Of a stretch of DNA of 64,000 nucleotides, positions 7,343 through 15,009 are shown one piece after another. The notes under the pieces were generated by a model. It was not told the origin of the DNA, ran no database searches, and saw only the letters and a program-made list of their open reading frames with translations. Location: positions 1-64,000 of the forward strand of contig NZ_CP018258.1 in assembly GCF_001953175.1 (NCBI RefSeq), given 5' to 3'. Each line of letters starts with the position of its first letter. Position 1 is the stretch's first letter. The DNA comes from Dehalogenimonas formicexedens (GTDB lineage: Bacteria > Chloroflexota > Dehalococcoidia > Dehalococcoidales > Dehalococcoidaceae). A program made the position numbers and the translations under genes.

Positions 7343-9013
7343 TTAATTCACGAATCCGTCGGAAAGCGTCTTCAGGAAGGCCAGGATATTGGCCTGGTCG
7401 GCCATGACCGTCATCATGCCGCCGCCGCCCATGCCGCCGCCTCCCATTCCGCCTCCGCCGCCGCCCATCATGGGCATGGTGAAGTTGAGAGTCTCCAGGT
7501 TCAGGGACACCTCGGGCGCCGGGAACAGGTTCGGGTCGGGCATCATGCCGCCGCCCATGCCTCCGCCGCCCATCCCGCCGCCACCGCCCATGCCGCCACC
7601 CATCATCGCCTCCATGTGGGCGCGCCAGGTATAGAACATGATGACATCTTCGAGGGATTTGAAGTAGCCGTTATGCATGTAGGCCTTGACGAAGTCAGGG
7701 CTCGGCCTCAGGTCCACGTTCCGCAGCGTCGGCACCTTGAACTTGCCAAGGTTGGCTTCCCAGGTCGAGTCGCCGATGCTCTGAAGGAAGGCGCCCAACC
7801 CGTAATCGAGCCAATCCGCGCCTTCGGGGTTGTACTTTTTGTCCGCTGAGTAGAAGGGGTTGGCCGGGTTCTTGGGCACGCCGATGTTGTGGTAGCTGTA
7901 ATCGGTGAACACCGGCCTGGCATCCATCGAGTCGCCCATCGAATGGCAGCGGACGCAGTCGCCGCGGGAAGGATCGTTGAACGCCGCCAGGCCCTGCAGT
8001 TCGTTATCCGCCAGTCCCAGGCCGCGGAAATTCTCCCAGTAGGACTGCGAAGGCGCCGGGGTGATGTTGACCCTGGATGAACCGGGCTGGGAACGATAGT
8101 TGGAACCCCCATTGGTAATCGTAATCGAGGTAACAACTCCGTTAACCACGGTAGCGTAGGCTGTCGCGCCTGAGCCCATCATGCCGTTTCCGAAACTGAT
8201 AGTAGGTGCGGCCGAATAGCCGGAACCGCCATTAGTAACGGTGACGGCGGTGATGACCCCACCGACCACTGTGGATGTGGCCGTCGCTCCGCTGCCAACC
8301 CCGGCATTGCTGAAGCTGATCTTGGTGACATCCAGCCCCGCCGTTTTGGCGTTGGCCCAGAATACGTCGAACTTGGAACTGAACGAACTGACCTCGGGGC
8401 TTTCTTCGAAAGCGGCGATAGCTTTTGCGATATTGGCATAAGTTTCATCAAGGTGGCTGTTGATGTAGCTTTCCTTGATAGTGTTCTTCCCGAAAACTGC
8501 CTCATAAAGCCCCGCATATTCGGAGTGGGCCACCCCCAGGCACACCACCCTCGCCGAAGGCATGGCCTGCTCCAGCGGGTTCAGGAATGGACCCTGGGCT
8601 TGTTCTGCCAGAGGATCATCGAGCGTCCAGCCGGTCGCTCGGCCGTCGTAGAACATGCCGCCGATCCAATTGCCGGCCGTATCTTGATGCAGTATCGGGC
8701 TGTCACCGGCATAGGCCGCTGACGGCGGCTTGCGGTTGCCCGCCCGGCCGTTGATCGCCCCGGGGTAGATCGCCTGCCCCGCGTTGATCGCCGAGTCCGG
8801 CCCGGTGTAGCCGGTCGTCGGGTCGTGGCAGGTGGCGCAGGACATGTTGTTGCCGCTGGAAAGGTTGGTGTCATAGAACAGGTACCTGCCAAGCAGGACT
8901 TTTTGCTCGTCTTTTGAGAGCCCGCTCCAGTCGTCGGCCGCGGCTTCGACCGGCGCCAGCGCCAGCATCAGCCCCACAACCGCCGCCCCCATGATCAGCT
9001 TTCTTCTTCTCAC
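7343..9013 (-). CDS. Diheme cytochrome c peroxidase-like protein with inserted repeats
   Basis: This is a secreted diheme protein of the CCP/MauG family, about 556 residues, longer than the usual 320-400. A signal peptide ends near VEAAADD. Heme motifs are CATCH (first domain) and CVRCH (second domain). Between them sit two tandem beta repeats, each of the form GSGATA...TVTNGGSGY. Near the C-terminus are two runs of Met and Gly (MMGGGMGGGGGMGGGG type) flanking SLNLETLNFTMP. I chose the GTG at 9013 because GGAGG stands 5 nt upstream. It may reduce peroxide or oxidise a small substrate using the cupredoxin or cytochromes as donor. The insertions are the unusual part. Confidence 0.88.
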   Translation of the reverse strand: MRRRKLIMGAAVVGLMLALAPVEAAADDWSGLSKDEQKVLLGRYLFYDTNLSSGNNMSCATCHDPTTGYTGPDSAINAGQAIYPGAINGRAGNRKPPSAAYAGDSPILHQDTAGNWIGGMFYDGRATGWTLDDPLAEQAQGPFLNPLEQAMPSARVVCLGVAHSEYAGLYEAVFGKNTIKESYINSHLDETYANIAKAIAAFEESPEVSSFSSKFDVFWANAKTAGLDVTKISFSNAGVGSGATATSTVVGGVITAVTVTNGGSGYSAAPTISFGNGMMGSGATAYATVVNGVVTSITITNGGSNYRSQPGSSRVNITPAPSQSYWENFRGLGLADNELQGLAAFNDPSRGDCVRCHSMGDSMDARPVFTDYSYHNIGVPKNPANPFYSADKKYNPEGADWLDYGLGAFLQSIGDSTWEANLGKFKVPTLRNVDLRPSPDFVKAYMHNGYFKSLEDVIMFYTWRAHMEAMMGGGMGGGGGMGGGGMGGGMMPDPNLFPAPEVSLNLETLNFTMPMMGGGGGGMGGGGMGGGGMMTVMADQANILAFLKTLSDGFVN

Positions 9014-9096
9014 TTTTTCCTCCCCCTTGAAACCACCATAAGTTGGGTGGTATTTCACCGGATTTTATTTTAAGGAATATAATACCCGGTTAACAA

Positions 9097-9275: not shown

Positions 9276-9305
9276 TTTAAGCATCAGTTAACAAGAGGTG
9301 GCGTT

Positions 9306-11045
9306 ATGTTTCGCGTTCGCCGCATCCTCGACGATACCCGGGCTACCGGCAAGCAGGCCGTGGCGCAGGTCCAGCAGATCATGCGGGACCAGTTCCCCAA
9401 GCTGCTGCCGAAGACAATTGCCGCCCTGCCCCACTACCTCCGCAATCCTGTGAAGTACGGCTTCCGCTCGGTCCTCTTCGTGGCCGACGATGTCAAGGGC
9501 AATACCAAGGGCTTTGCCTTGATGTCCCACGACCCGGAGCTCAATTTCGCCTACCTTGACTATCTCTCCGCCGCCAGGGGCGTCACCGGCCAGGGCGTAG
9601 GAGGGGCGCTTTACGAACGTGTCCGCGAGGAGGCCTCCCGCCTGGGCGTCATCGGTCTCTTTTTCGAGGCGCTGCCGGACGACGCCAGACTATCCAAAGA
9701 CCCCAGGATCAGAAAGCAGAACGCCGCCCGGCTGCGATTTTACGAACGCTTCGGTGCCTTCCCCATCGCCAACACCAGGTACGAAACGCCGATAGTCCCT
9801 GGCGGCGACAATCCGCCCCTGCTGGTGTTCGACGGACTGGGCAATGACGTCTCCCTCCCCGCCCCCCTTGCCAAATCCATAGTCCGCGCCATCCTGGAGC
9901 GAAAATACGGCGATATCCTGCCCGAAGGCTATGTCGACAGAGTGGTGGAATCCTTCAAGGACGACCCGGTGAAACTTCGTCCGTCCCGCTACTTGAAGGG
10001 CGAGGCTGAGGTCATCAGGAAGCGCTCCCTGCCGGTTGGCAAGCGAATCGTCCTCATCGTCAACGACAAGCACGCCATCCACCACGTTAAGGAGATCGGC
10101 TACGTCGAGGCCCCGGTGCGCATCGACACTATCATGGCCGAACTGGACAAGACCAGCCTGTTCTACCGCGTCCCGGCCGTACACTTCGGCGAACAGCGCA
10201 TCACCGCCGTCCATGACGCCGAGTTCTTCAACTACTTCAAGCGGGTGTGCTCCAAGCTTGAGCCGGAGGAATCGGTCTATCCGTACGTCTTTCCCATCCG
10301 CAACGCCGCCCATCCGCCGGAAGACCTGGCCATCAGGGCCGGTTATTATTGCATCGACACCTTCACCCCCATCAACCGCAACGCCTTTCTGGCCGCCAGG
10401 CGGGCGGTGGACTGCAGCCTGACCGGAGCCAAATACCTTCTGGAAGGCACCCACCTGGTTTACGCCCTGGTGCGCCCGCCCGGCCATCACGCCGAGAGGC
10501 GGGCTTTCGGAGGCTTCTGCTACTTCAATTCCGCCGCCGCCGCGGCGCAGTACCTGAGCCCCTTCGGCACCGTCGCCATCCTGGATATCGACTACCACCA
10601 TGGCAACGGCCAACAGGTCATCTTTTACAGCCGGCGTGACGTGCTGACCATCTCCATCCACTGTAAGCCCTCCGTCGCCTACCCTTACTTCAGCGGCTTC
10701 GCGTCAGAGTGCGGCGAGGGCGAAGGCGTAGGCTTCAATATCAACTACTCCCTCCCCGAAAAAGTGGACGGCCCCGCCTTCCGCATCGAGCTGAAAACGG
10801 CCCTGACCCGCATCAAGCGCTTCAGGCCGCAGTTCCTCGTGGTGGCCCTCGGCTTGGACACCGCCAGGAACGATCCCACCGGCACCTGGGACCTCCTGCC
10901 CGACGATTTCGAGGCCAACGGACGCCTTGTCGGCGCGCTCGGCTTGCCGACGCTGGTGGTTCAGGAGGGCGGCTACGACACCCAGGTCCTGGGCATCAAC
11001 GCCCGCCGCTTTTTCACCGGCCTGTGGTCGGCTGCATACGAATAG
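9306..11045 (+). CDS. Fusion of GNAT acetyltransferase and histone-deacetylase-fold amidohydrolase
   Basis: The 579-residue product joins two opposing activities. Residues about 1-200 are a GNAT domain with the acetyl-CoA loop RGVTGQGVGGALYERV. Residues about 230-579 are an arginase/deacetylase-fold domain with the catalytic pair in RPPGHHAE, zinc ligands in LDIDYHHGNG and LDTARNDP, and the late motif QEGGYDT. The deacetylase half resembles acetylpolyamine amidohydrolases. The ATG at 9306 has GAGGTGG upstream and follows an extended -10 box. The fusion may set acetylation of a polyamine or a protein lysine both ways; the substrate is unknown. It has no signal peptide, so it is cytoplasmic. 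It stands alone between redox genes. Confidence 0.88.
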   Translation: MFRVRRILDDTRATGKQAVAQVQQIMRDQFPKLLPKTIAALPHYLRNPVKYGFRSVLFVADDVKGNTKGFALMSHDPELNFAYLDYLSAARGVTGQGVGGALYERVREEASRLGVIGLFFEALPDDARLSKDPRIRKQNAARLRFYERFGAFPIANTRYETPIVPGGDNPPLLVFDGLGNDVSLPAPLAKSIVRAILERKYGDILPEGYVDRVVESFKDDPVKLRPSRYLKGEAEVIRKRSLPVGKRIVLIVNDKHAIHHVKEIGYVEAPVRIDTIMAELDKTSLFYRVPAVHFGEQRITAVHDAEFFNYFKRVCSKLEPEESVYPYVFPIRNAAHPPEDLAIRAGYYCIDTFTPINRNAFLAARRAVDCSLTGAKYLLEGTHLVYALVRPPGHHAERRAFGGFCYFNSAAAAAQYLSPFGTVAILDIDYHHGNGQQVIFYSRRDVLTISIHCKPSVAYPYFSGFASECGEGEGVGFNINYSLPEKVDGPAFRIELKTALTRIKRFRPQFLVVALGLDTARNDPTGTWDLLPDDFEANGRLVGALGLPTLVVQEGGYDTQVLGINARRFFTGLWSAAYE

Positions 11046-11649
11046 AATCTCCTCGCCCCTTAAAAGTGGCCTTTCCTTGTCATTCCCTCTCCCTGTGGGA
11101 GAGGGCTTAAGCCTGCACTGAGCAAAGCGAATGTGGTGAGGGTTCCACCTATCTCTCCCGACTATCGCCGATCCAGGTCGGGAGTCGGGTAATGTAGGGG
11201 CGATCGCGAATGCGTCGCCCAACGATCTCACCCCTGCTCGTTTTTGTCATTCTGATCAGAGCGAAGCATCTGGAAGAATCTCTAAACCACCCTGAACACG
11301 ACGTTCCGAAAATAAATGAGAATCGATCGAAAAAGGTGGATTAATCCCCTCTCTCGCTAACGGCGGGAGAGGGCTAGAGCCTGCACTGAGCAAAGCGAAT
11401 GTGAGAGCGGGTCAGTTTTCTCCTTGTCCGCTGACGGCGGGAGAGGATTAAGGTGAGGCTGCCACTGACTTCCCCCTGTAGGGCACCGGTCCTCCCCCTC
11501 TGTCTTTGCGAGGAGTGAAACGACGAAGCAATCTTAGGTCGGTTTAGCCTTCCCCCTTTAGAAAGGGGGATTGAGGGGGATTTCGGTCCCCCAATTGACA
11601 GCTGGGAGTGGGGTAATGTAGGGGCGAGGCGCGCCTCGCCCTTGGCCCT
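11046..11649. repeat. Repeat island 1
   Basis: No gene is visible. The stretch is a mosaic of dispersed elements: two copies of the word GCCTGCACTGAGCAAAGCGA (near 11112 and 11379) beside GGGAGAGGGCT motifs, a TAGGGGCGATCGCGAATGCG element near 11194, a 118-bp segment (11251-11369) found inverted at 22747-22864, a TCTTTGCGAGGAGTGAAACG element near 11503, a CCCCCTTTAGAAAGGGGGAT element near 11551, and another TAGGGGCGAGGCGCGCCTCG palindrome near 11619. Confidence 0.85.
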
Positions 11650-11958
11650 CTATGGCGCCTTCAGCCACTCCGCCAGCACCCCCTGCTGCTCTGTCGTCAA
11701 GTTCTTCGCCGTCTTGTGGTCGACGAGGAACGCCGCCAGGCTGGCCTGGGTGAAATCTTTGAGTTCCGGTGCCGTGATGTTCGGGCCGTGGCCGCCGGTC
11801 CGGTCGGATTTGTGGCAGGACGCACAGTCGTTGGAGAAGATCTGGCCGGCGTCGGTCAAGTCAGCCGGCGATACCGTCTTCGGCACGCAGGCGGTGACCA
11901 GGCCGCCGAAAATCAGGATGACCGCCGGGACGATAAAATAAAGTGATTTCTTTTGCAT
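11650..11958 (-). CDS. Cytochrome c lipoprotein (class I, monoheme)
   Basis: This is a short secreted monoheme cytochrome of 102 residues. A hydrophobic N-terminus ends in a lipobox (GLVTAC), then the heme motif CASCHKSDRTGGHGPN at about 49. The ATG at 11958 has GAGGG upstream; a longer frame starting with TTG adds only four residues. A methionine axial ligand is not evident after the heme motif, so the distal ligand is uncertain. It is flanked on both sides by repeat islands, so its operon context is lost. It probably works with the other secreted redox proteins at 6.9-13.1 kb. Confidence 0.87.
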   Translation of the reverse strand: MQKKSLYFIVPAVILIFGGLVTACVPKTVSPADLTDAGQIFSNDCASCHKSDRTGGHGPNITAPELKDFTQASLAAFLVDHKTAKNLTTEQQGVLAEWLKAP

Positions 11959-12628
11959 CAAAACCCTCAATCAAAATTAGTCGGTGAAGTACTATTATAA
12001 CTTGACGAAGGCGCCGGGCGAAACCCCCACCCCCAACCTCCACCAAACTGTCTTTGCGAGGAGCCTAAAAATTCTCTCCGCTTTACTCCCTCTCCGTGAA
12101 ACGGAGAGGGTAAGGGGTAAGGGCGACGCGGCAATCTCGTAACTCTCTTTCCTCGCCCCTACCAATGGCCTTTCCTTGTCATTCCCTCTCACATTTTGGG
12201 AAAGGGCTTAAGGGTGAGGGCGTGGGAGAGGAAATGAAGAGCCTGCACTGAGTAAAGCGAATGTGGTGAGGGCTTCGCCGATCTTTCCCAAATATCGCCG
12301 ATCCAGGTCGGGAGTAGGATAAGGTAGGGGCGATCGCGAATGCGTCGCCCACTAACCCCCTCCGTCTTTGCGAGTCCCGACACGTCGGGACTCGGCAATC
12401 TCCTTTGGTCCAACCTTTCCCCCTTTGAAAAGGGGGACTAAGGGGGATTTGGTCGCAATTCATCGCCCCTGGATTTTTGTTATTCCGGCGCTCGCCCCGT
12501 ACTTCAGTCGGTGAAGGCCGGAATCCAATTCGGCCCAAAATGTAGGGGTGAGGCGACCCTCGCCCTCCGGGATGTTCCTCAACGGATAACTGACAGCTGA
12601 TAACTGAAAACTGATAACTCGCCGCCCG
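11959..12628. repeat. Repeat island 2
   Basis: No gene is visible in these 670 bp. It contains a GCCTGCACTGAGTAAAGCGA element near 12242, TAGGGGCGATCGCGAATGCG near 12326, a TCTTTGCGAGTCCCGACACG palindromic element near 12364, CCCCCTTTGAAAAGGGGGAC near 12419, a TTCCGGCGCTCGCCCCGTAC element near 12483, and a string of CTGATAACTGAAAACTGATA words near 12599. Confidence 0.85.
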
Positions 12629-13117
12629 TCACGTCAGACTCTGCAAAAACGCTATCACATCATTCAAATCCCTGTCCGATATCACCCACACCGGCATCGG
12701 GTACTCAAGCCGGTTCCCTCCCGGGTCCAGCCCCTGGGTGACCGCCCTCTTGAACGTGTCGACGGTGTACGGCGGGTGGTCCATATCCGGGTCGGGTCCC
12801 GTGAGCGCCGCCCAGGTGATGTTCGGCACGTCATATACCGCCATCATCAAAAATATCTGCCCGCCGTGGGCGTTCTGCCCGTGGCAGGAGGCGCAGCTGT
12901 AATACATCATTCCCGGCCCGCTCGACTGGTACAGCGGGTCGCCCGACGAACTGGTGGCGTACAGGAAAATGTTCCGCCCGTTTTCGACCGATGCCGCCCC
13001 GGTGGTGGCGGTGCCGGTTGTCGATGTCGTGTTCGACGGAGCCTGTGTGCACGATGCCGCCATAATAATCAGGGCGATCGTCGCAGCGGCCGCGCCGGTC
13101 CTTCCGAATTTTTTCAC
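12629..13117 (-). CDS. Cytochrome c lipoprotein with Thr/Ser-rich linker
   Basis: This 162-residue extracytoplasmic monoheme cytochrome has a signal sequence ending in lipobox MAASC, then a low-complexity Thr/Ser/Ala linker (about 25-43), then the heme motif CASCHGQNAHGG near 75-86. The distal methionine is probably in EYPMPVWVISD. This architecture suits a membrane-tethered electron carrier. It shares its strand with the other cytochrome and the cupredoxin, but repeat islands separate them. Confidence 0.88.
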   Translation of the reverse strand: MKKFGRTGAAAATIALIIMAASCTQAPSNTTSTTGTATTGAASVENGRNIFLYATSSSGDPLYQSSGPGMMYYSCASCHGQNAHGGQIFLMMAVYDVPNITWAALTGPDPDMDHPPYTVDTFKRAVTQGLDPGGNRLEYPMPVWVISDRDLNDVIAFLQSLT

Positions 13118-13980
13118 GATATCCTCTTCAGATCTTTTTTACCTTTGCGATGCCTTTCTTCGGTTGTCCTCAGTTCAACTTTCCTCGCCCCTGGTGGGAG
13201 AGGAAATGAAGAGCCTGCACTGAGCGCAGCGAACGTGAGAGGGGGTATCGATCTTCTTCGCCCCGCAATCCACCTTGACATTCCGGCGCTCGCCCCGTAC
13301 TTCAGTCGGGGAAAGCCGGAATCTAATCCCCGAAAATGTAGGGGCGACGCCTGCGTCGCCCAGCGATTTCACCCCTGGGATGGATCACTCGTCGCCAACT
13401 CCTTCCTCTCTAAAAACTGTCTTTGCGAGTCCCGACACGTCGGGACTCGGCAATCTTATACGGATTGTCCGACGTCTATCCCCTCTCCCCGACGGGGAGA
13501 AGGCTAGAGAGGGGCAATTAATCCCCTCGCCCGCTGACGGCGGGAGAGGGTAGAGCCTGCACTGAGCGAAGCGAATGTGGTGGGGTAGCATAAATTCCTT
13601 ATCTCTATCACCGATGAAAAAACTTCGATTCGTTCATTTGGGATGCCGTATGAGTGACGAATCGGCATTTAGGATTTACATATTAGGATTTAGGATTTCC
13701 GTCACTAGTACCAAAACTTCTTCGCCTGAAAGAAGCGGTATCCCCTCAACCGGAAAACCAGCTTCCGCACCCTGTCCCTCTGCGACAATGAACTCGATGT
13801 GCACTTGTTCGTTTCCATGTTCGTCGTTCCTTATTCGTTGAAATTTGAGTTTCGAATTTGGATATTATCCCGATTCACATTCGTTCATTTGGGATGCCGT
13901 ATGAGTGACGAATCGGCATTTCGGATTTCGATATTCGTATTTCGGATTTCAGTTGAAGGTTGACATTGATCAGCTTTCAA
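13118..13980. repeat. Repeat island 3
   Basis: Mostly repeats. These include GCCTGCACTGAGCGCAGCGA (near 13214) and GCCTGCACTGAGCGAAGCGA (near 13554) elements. A 185-bp segment (13274-13458) is repeated directly at 14704-14888. AT-rich TTTAGGATTTCGATATTCG words fill about 13660-13700 and 13850-13960, and the phrase GGGATGCCGTATGAGTGACG appears twice (near 13640 and 13891). One possible short ORF (13705-13818, minus) is listed separately. Confidence 0.85.
13705..13818 (-). CDS. Possible 37-residue basic/aromatic peptide
   Basis: This minus-strand ORF starts with ATG at 13818 and encodes 37 residues, ending RFFQAKKFWY. A weak AAGGAA stands about 10 nt before the start. It lies between two copies of an AT-rich repeat and differs in composition from them. 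I recognise no family. It may be a chance frame, so the call is tentative. Confidence 0.2.
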   Translation of the reverse strand: METNKCTSSSLSQRDRVRKLVFRLRGYRFFQAKKFWY

Positions 13981-14331
13981 CTATTTCCAGGGCGAGTTCA
14001 ACTGGAAATAGTTCCCGTCCGGGTCGGCGAAGGTGGCGATCCACGCCCCTTCCATTTCGTAGAGTTCCTTGACGATCCTGGCTCCCAGAGCCTTGATCCG
14101 CTCGTACTCTTTCTTGTAGTACCTCGTCTCGAAGTTCAGGATTACCCGCTGGGGCTCTTTAGCCGTGCCTTTGACCTCGGAATGTTCCCCGACGTGGAAC
14201 CAGCAGTCTCCGGTTTTCCAGCCGTACCACGCACCTTCCTGCCAGTCAGGTTTGCCCAGGACCCTGGTGTAAAAATCCCCCAGCGCCGACGGATTCTCCG
14301 ATCCGATCATGATCGATGTCAGGCTCAACAT
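13981..14331 (-). CDS. VOC-superfamily (glyoxalase-like) protein
   Basis: This 116-residue protein of the vicinal-oxygen-chelate fold has the two beta-alpha-beta-beta-beta halves expected: IMIGSENPSALGDFYTRVLG at the N-terminus and WIATFADPDGNYFQLNSPW at the C-terminus. Metal ligands and substrate cannot be settled; the second-half Glu ligand is a Gln here (NYFQL), so a classic metal site is doubtful. It is a lone gene between two copies of a 185-bp direct repeat, which could have mobilised it. Confidence 0.85.
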   Translation of the reverse strand: MLSLTSIMIGSENPSALGDFYTRVLGKPDWQEGAWYGWKTGDCWFHVGEHSEVKGTAKEPQRVILNFETRYYKKEYERIKALGARIVKELYEMEGAWIATFADPDGNYFQLNSPWK

Positions 14332-15009
14332 ATCCTCGTTCCTCCCGCATTTTTCGATTCGACCGCAACTTTAGTCTAGAACGTGTCCGACGGCTTACAT
14401 ATCCGTATTTTCACCTAATTTTCGGTGCTTTCGCTCCTACTTTTCCCCAACCTTGTCTTTGCGAGGAGGGCGAAGTTAACCTGTCCCGGCCTGCCCCGAT
14501 GTGTCGGGGAACTTGTCGAAGGGTGGCAATCTTCCTTGCATAGCCTATTTTGTCATCCTGCGCGCAGCGGAGGATCCACAACCTTTTGTCTTTGCGAGGA
14601 GTGAAACGACGTGGCAATGTGCACTTGGTTCGACCTTTCCCCCTTTGAAAAGGGGGACTAAGGGGGATTTGGCCGCAAATCATCGCGCGTCTTCAGCGTG
14701 CCCTTTTGTCACTCCGGCGCTCGCCCCGTACTTAGTCGGGGAAAGCCGGAAGTCAAGCCAACCCTGGATGTAGGGGCGACGTAGGCGTCGCCCAGCGATT
14801 TCACCCCTGGGATGGATCACTCGTCGCCAACTCCTTCCTCTTAATCTGTCTTTGCGAGTCCCGCCACGTCGGGACGTGGCAATCTGATTTGGTTTGGGGT
14901 GCTTTTTCCTAATCGCCCGCTGATAGCTGATGGCTTTCACAAAATATTCCCCCAAAAACGTCACCAGACGCTTGACAACTCTCTGAACGCCCGTGCTATA
15001 ATATGCCGC
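14332..15009. repeat. Repeat island 4 and promoter of copy A
   Basis: This gene-free stretch holds TCTTTGCGAGGAGGGCGAAG (near 14456), TCTTTGCGAGGAGTGAAACG (near 14588) and TCTTTGCGAGTCCCGCCACG (near 14851) elements, CCCCCTTTGAAAAGGGGGAC near 14640, and the second copy of the 185-bp direct repeat (14704-14888). From about 14934 the sequence changes to the conserved promoter block of the copy A ORF. Confidence 0.85.
14934..15002 (+). promoter_or_regulatory. Conserved 19-bp-spacer promoter, copy A
   Basis: TTGACA (14972-14977) and TATAAT (14997-15002) are both perfect, with a 19-bp spacer. The 38 bp upstream (AAATATTCC, CAAAAACGTC, AGACGC words) match the blocks before copies B and C. The ATG at 15010 is 7 nt after the -10 box, so the transcript is probably leaderless. 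Confidence 0.75.

Follow-up and report, generated by a model that had tools for sequence, protein, structure and literature searches.

A predicted acetyltransferase-deacetylase fusion protein in Dehalogenimonas formicexedens and the lysine 2,3-aminomutase and ATP-grasp gene set that co-occurs with it

Two described systems are among those closest to the locus analysed here. In passages of a survey of bacterial deacylases, the L2 loop of the bacterial polyamine deacetylases is described as ending in Glu106 (Mycoplana; His in Pseudomonas sp.), and the gatekeeper place is occupied by PIS in these enzymes and by PEG in HDAC10 (PMC11532494). The N-epsilon-acetyl-beta-lysine pathway, in the passages concerned, consists of the lysine 2,3-aminomutase AblA and the acetyltransferase AblB (PMC9337991, PMC3543383). 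We compared both with a gene of Dehalogenimonas formicexedens that lies in a window of 64,000 nucleotides (contig NZ_CP018258.1, positions 1 to 64,000 of the forward strand).

The first-pass annotation of this DNA had proposed that an acetyltransferase and a deacetylase-fold enzyme are fused in one chain at 9306-11045 and that both halves keep their key motifs. Both proposals were borne out. The reading frame of 579 residues runs unbroken from an ATG at 9306 to a stop at 11045, Pfam and structural models recovered both domains, and the TGQGVG P-loop, GHH, DIDYHHGNG and LDTARNDP were all present (Table 1). The suggested check for loss of essential residues found none lost: in an alignment of the protein with 80 relatives, the catalytic residues of both halves (G97, G99, E121, Y146, E147, H394, H395, D427, D429, H431, D518 and Y557) were identical in 81 of 81 sequences. 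A pseudogene or a frame artefact is ruled out by the uninterrupted frame and these invariant residues. The model of the whole chain (pLDDT 85, pTM 0.61) matched acetylpolyamine amidohydrolases, with low confidence in parts of the stretch corresponding to their L1/L2 dimer loops. The two domains are joined by a linker with modelled helices at residues 186-201 and 209-215 and with L197, Y201, Y209, S216 and R225 conserved in the alignment. NCBIfam contained no family for the whole fusion or for the acetyltransferase half alone.

Table 1 Features of the fusion gene in the window, with residue numbers of the encoded protein.
Feature	Position	Strand	Basis
Probable ribosome-binding site AGAGGTGG, 4 bases upstream of the ATG	9294..9301	+	Sequence; inference
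GNAT-deacetylase fusion gene, 579 aa	9306..11045	+	ORF, Pfam, full-length relatives, model
GNAT acetyltransferase domain (predicted), residues 1-177	9306..9836	+	Pfam; model; Foldseek
Acetyl-CoA P-loop TGQGVG, residues 94-99	9585..9602	+	G97 and G99 invariant, 81/81
Y146-E147 of the FYERFGA motif	9741..9746	+	81/81
Interdomain linker (residues 178-247), two helices conserved	9837..10046	+	Conserved residues; model helices
HDAC-fold amidohydrolase domain, residues 248-579	10047..11042	+	Pfam; closest structures are acetylpolyamine amidohydrolases
Family signature CIDTFTP, residues 349-355	10350..10370	+	CIDTFTP 72/81; DTFTP 81/81
Catalytic His pair H394-H395	10485..10490	+	81/81
D427-D429-H431, presumed charge relay and zinc ligands	10584..10598	+	81/81; roles from family knowledge
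D518, presumed third zinc ligand	10857..10859	+	81/81; role from family knowledge
Gatekeeper motif PTG	10875..10883	+	81/81
Y557 of EGGY, presumed transition-state tyrosine	10974..10976	+	81/81; role from family knowledge

The N-terminal half is a predicted GNAT acetyltransferase. Its match to Acetyltransf_1 at residues 55-122 is weak when taken alone (E 2.2e-4; score 21.9 bits, cut-off 20.7), and the same Pfam family was matched by 41 of 42 N-terminal halves. Modelled by itself, this half reached pLDDT 93 and pTM 0.90, and the model resembled the structures of GCN5, AAC(6') and RimI with a Foldseek probability of 1.00. The P-loop glycines in the alignment and the fold of the model are those of the GNAT superfamily, and we take Y146 to be its usual general-acid tyrosine.

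The C-terminal half matched Hist_deacetyl at residues 267-570 (E 2.8e-66, 224 bits), and its nearest relatives by sequence and fold are the acetylpolyamine amidohydrolases. The hallmarks of a classical zinc deacylase, namely the D-H-D zinc ligands, the His pair and the Tyr of EGGY, are present in all 81 sequences; the roles of D427, D429, H431, D518 and Y557 are those we presume from the family. DTFTP at residues 351-355 is likewise invariant among the 81 aligned sequences. Two features that mark the cluster 4 acetylpolyamine amidohydrolases were not found: the gatekeeper is PTG instead of PIS in 81/81, and position 342, which was equated with Glu106 through a phmmer alignment, is Pro (41), Ser (16), Ala (13) or Thr (6) in 76 of the 81 sequences and Ile in 2. 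Judged by its sequence, the deacetylase half is kin to the polyamine enzymes, yet it lacks the two marks tested. In passages of its description, PA3774 of Pseudomonas, a member of the same superfamily, likewise does not take polyamines (PMC4784309). These residues bear on an acetylpolyamine cycle, in which the GNAT half would add, and the amidohydrolase-like half remove, an acetyl group on putrescine, cadaverine or spermidine. The kinship of the deacetylase half speaks for such a cycle, but the Glu106 place and the gatekeeper argue against it, as does the gene company, since inspection by eye of the 25 neighbour families most frequent at the fusion loci brought up no recognisable polyamine gene; we consider it very unlikely.

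To place the fusion among other bacteria, the 80 relatives were taken as the best-scoring of at least 571 confirmed among at least 592 candidates. Their matches start at residue 1, 2 or 8 of the query and end at residues 573-579, with 54-67% identity, and the records of these best 80 are labelled as about 18 phyla. The carriers include the isolates Dasania sp. GY-MA-18 and Prolixibacter denitrificans DSM 27267. This choice is biased to full-length matches, so their full length is partly selected. A fairer test was provided by 144 genomes of the class of G265 (labelled Desulfobulbaceae), which were not picked for the fusion. The fusion was found in 30 of them, near full length in 28 (one with an internal stop) and shortened in two (residues 1-474 and 1-347). 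Six further genomes had the deacetylase half only, whereas the GNAT half occurred in exactly the same 30 genomes, always in the fusion frame. Because the GNAT half never stands apart in these 144 genomes, we rejected the possibility that the two halves were joined recently or by accident. In a sample of 251 genomes of the source organism's own phylum, the fusion was found in the source genome only, and the 48 other matches covered the deacetylase half only; in a quick tree, the deacetylase half of the source protein grouped with two Dehalococcoidia records (support 97). These results support the fusion as a lasting arrangement of two apparently intact catalytic domains.

Clustering of the neighbours at the relatives' loci yielded three recurrent families, which Pfam and NCBIfam identified as a Ddl-like ATP-grasp protein, a radical SAM protein resembling lysine 2,3-aminomutase (KamA) and a free-standing GNAT. 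The set comprises KamA, two D-Ala-D-Ala-ligase-like ATP-grasp proteins (G1 and G2) and this second GNAT, and thus five genes with the fusion. With the genes of the source genome as queries, an ATP-grasp gene of the set adjoined the fusion in 39 of 80 loci; KamA, ATP-grasp and GNAT occurred together with it in 28, and none of the three was near it in 40, many of which were short contigs. We further searched the genomes of 43 carriers without clear adjacency, together with three adjacent controls and with 37 adjacent loci excluded. A G1-type ATP-grasp was encoded elsewhere in 36 of the 43 (best matches 133-205 bits, plus one partial match of 109 bits adjoining KamA), and KamA, G2 or the GNAT adjoined the distant G1 in 33 of the 36, the exceptions being L115, L136 and L140. 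The remaining seven (G251, G256, G258, G260, G278, G286 and G292) had matches of 75-99 bits or none; some are small or incomplete assemblies in which misses are not interpretable. At least 73 of 80 fusion carriers therefore have the gene set, either beside the fusion or at another place in the genome (36 plus the 37 adjacent loci). In the class sample, the ATP-grasp marker was found in 38 of 144 genomes: both marker and fusion in 29, the fusion only in one (G380), the marker only in nine and neither in 105. The marker was thus present in 29/30 fusion carriers versus 9/114 others (Fisher p 2e-21, with the relatedness of the genomes ignored).

The KamA-like genes retain the residues expected of a lysine 2,3-aminomutase. 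The KamA of the source genome has the counterparts of R134, D293, D330 and K337 of 2a5h together with the CxxxCxxC motif, and so do 30 of the 32 KamA-like genes found at the loci; of the two exceptions, one (L005) is truncated and retains D, D and K, and the other (L014) is a distant outlier. We take D293 and D330 to hold the side-chain amine, and glutamate 2,3-aminomutase presumably differs there; glutamate 2,3-aminomutase as the partner is ruled out by the residues kept. To our knowledge, Dehalococcoidia lack peptidoglycan, and the Ddl-like genes in these bacteria must therefore serve another purpose. In one genome (G257), a stand-alone fusion-type deacetylase (345-aa frame) lies between G2 and the GNAT in the operon; it falls inside the fusion clade in a quick tree, its exact place being unsure, and the genome also has a full fusion elsewhere (L015). 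A deacetylase-only version within the operon suggests that the erasing activity itself is tied to the pathway. The 25 most frequent neighbour families of the fusion loci offered no conspicuous transporter or further partner beyond the five genes, and no acetyl-CoA synthetase was recognised in them by eye. Two variants of the set were also observed. In G277, KamA and two G1-type ATP-grasp genes flanking a gene for a protein of about 400 residues occupy L134:3057-7172. In G048, of the same family as the source genome and another genus, KamA and the first ATP-grasp gene occur with neither G2 nor GNAT detected (L126:5458-10803), and are followed by genes for a Fur-like regulator and an apparent three-part metal ABC transporter (by eye), which may possibly indicate a metal link for the pathway.

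In the source genome, KamA, the two ATP-grasp genes and the GNAT gene follow one another head to tail at G000:C1:1004216-1007961 (L090:4217-7962), at a distance of about 1 Mb from the fusion gene; KamA overlaps with G1, and G2 with the GNAT gene. The encoded KamA aligned with 2a5h over 33-395 (E 5.5e-132). All 11 genomes of the family have the G1 marker and only the source genome has the fusion, which argues that the fusion is an accessory; a distant deacetylase match was all that was found in nine of the other ten, and none in the tenth. The sister genome G249 is collinear with the window on both flanks of the fusion, and a different gene, apparently for a protease-like secreted protein (by eye; L130:10893-11907, at the contig start), replaces the fusion stretch. 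Directly downstream of the fusion, the window carries diverged direct repeats (11057-14478) with a 55-nt family in five copies and several others; the exact 23-base core word of the repeat occurs in none of the other genomes among the 11 of the family. The gene at 7343-9058 on the minus strand appears by eye to encode a protein resembling di-haem peroxidases, with GGGM repeats rich in Gly and Met close to the C-terminus.

Another possibility is that the chain writes and erases acetyl groups on protein lysines, with regulation like that of AcuA/AcuC. GCN5-like folds are among the top structural matches of the GNAT half, and passages of the deacylase survey describe some bacterial ApaH enzymes whose substrates include lysine peptides (PMC11532494). 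Downstream of the KamA operon, at a distance of about 3.7 kb, two fusion-free genomes of the family carry a gene that by eye is acetyl-CoA-synthetase-like (L128:12947-14000 and L129:13028-14000). The GCN5 fold matches, however, reach only 10-13% identity, the conserved neighbours are metabolic, and the source genome has a separate second deacetylase, AcuC-like and of 345 aa (L091:3554-4591). We consider such regulation very unlikely. The polyamine or protein-lysine substrate put forward in the first-pass annotation was thus not upheld, with Glu106 and PIS absent and KamA, ATP-grasp and GNAT genes as the company of the fusion. The switch or cycle that it suggested, with one modification handled by both halves, is plausible.

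The conserved company of KamA, two ATP-grasp ligases and a second GNAT points to a metabolite derived from beta-lysine. We give about even credence to the fusion being a bifunctional accessory enzyme that sets and resets the acetylation of such a metabolite. KamA would convert lysine into beta-lysine, the two Ddl-like ligases would couple beta-lysine with other amino acids into a small peptide, and the separate RimI-like GNAT would provide an acetylation step. The GNAT head of the fusion would transfer acetyl from acetyl-CoA onto the product or an intermediate, and the zinc head would take it off as acetate, so that one chain could control the amount of the acetylated metabolite. We infer that both heads share one metabolite, and its identity and use are inferred likewise. 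By analogy with N-epsilon-acetyl-beta-lysine, and because no transporter recurred, our guess is that the product could be a compatible solute or an intracellular peptide; Rfam searches returned tRNA only, and no riboswitch, in the window, in the operon of the source genome and in 22 operon loci, and regulation therefore lends this guess no support. Several points count against the accessory enzyme proposed here: some 1 Mb separates the fusion gene from its presumed partners, its site is unlike that of the sister genome and has repeats on the downstream side, the marker was missed in seven of the 43 carriers searched (some of them small or incomplete assemblies), and the fused GNAT has no match among the NCBIfam models, that for AblB included.

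Alternatively, the acetyl group might be a protecting group: the GNAT head would cap one amine of lysine or beta-lysine, the ATP-grasp ligases would act on the other, and the zinc head would uncap the finished peptide. The same gene set and co-occurrence would fit, capping and uncapping in one chain are chemically sensible (compare the acetyl groups in arginine synthesis), and the stand-alone deacetylase in the G257 operon would also be accommodated. An obligate step should rarely be absent, however, unless another deacetylase substitutes, and 9 of the 38 class-sample genomes with the marker, as well as 10 of the 11 genomes of the family, have the set but no fusion. Synthesis of the product thus does not require the fusion; this favours adjusting or recycling of the acetyl state over an obligate protection and deprotection step, and we regard a protecting group as unlikely. 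The two heads might also act on different sites or molecules and be fused for stoichiometry only, with the second GNAT of the operon as a possible writer reversed by the zinc head. Nothing decisive counts against this, and sequence cannot discriminate; we nevertheless hold it to be rather improbable.

An extension of the accessory-enzyme reading, which we put forward tentatively and with some doubt, is that bacteria labelled as about 18 phyla, Dehalococcoidia among them, share a widespread and so far unnamed pathway to acetylated peptides that contain beta-lysine, and that the fusion is the built-in switch of this pathway, by which the same acetyl group is written and erased, with a new PTG-gatekeeper specificity class of zinc deacetylases. 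If true, a broadly conserved nameless metabolite would be made by a clonable five-gene set of isolates, a small molecule would be the substrate of an HDAC-like enzyme whose gatekeeper is unusual, and a clear case would be added to the opposed acetylation activities in one chain. The labels histone deacetylase, acetylpolyamine aminohydrolase and D-Ala-D-Ala ligase, which mask the pathway, would also be corrected. A literature search, with subscription papers mostly outside its scope and hence weak as evidence, returned no title or abstract on the fusion or the operon and nothing combining ATP-grasp, aminomutase, GNAT and deacetylase. In the main text of the 2024 survey, GNAT is mentioned three times, and the passages concerned contain no fusion (PMC11532494). 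As far as could be seen, the parts belong to known families, and their combination, specificity class and pathway are undescribed.

Compared with the known systems, the fusion shares its HDAC fold, zinc site, GHH, DxDxHHGNG and EGGY with the acetylpolyamine amidohydrolases (Marinobacter msAPAH 6phr, Pseudomonas sp. ApaH 9gkz and Mycoplana ApaH 3q9b; cluster 4 in passages of PMC11532494), and differs from them in having no Glu106 or PIS, in its invariant PTG and DTFTP, and in the GNAT in front. Like AblA/AblB, the gene set places a lysine 2,3-aminomutase alongside an acetyltransferase, but it adds two ATP-grasp ligases and a deacetylase; in NCBIfam, KamA scored 470-474 bits, under the AblA cut-off of 525.4, and the AblB model matched neither the fused GNAT nor the partner GNATs tested. 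The fused GNAT has the fold, the P-loop glycines and the FYExxGF-type motif of GCN5, AAC(6') and RimI, whereas its identity to solved GNATs is about 10-20% and no NCBIfam model covers it. Neighbourhoods of ATP-grasp amidoligases, in which Ddl-like ligases accompany amino-acid-modifying enzymes, were reportedly described by Iyer and others in 2009, and may include this exact neighbourhood. Glutathionylspermidine synthetase/amidase and PFK-2/FBPase-2 are bifunctional enzymes with opposed activities; the fusion is built of other folds with other chemistry, but would resemble them in combining a proposed forward activity with its reverse in a single chain.
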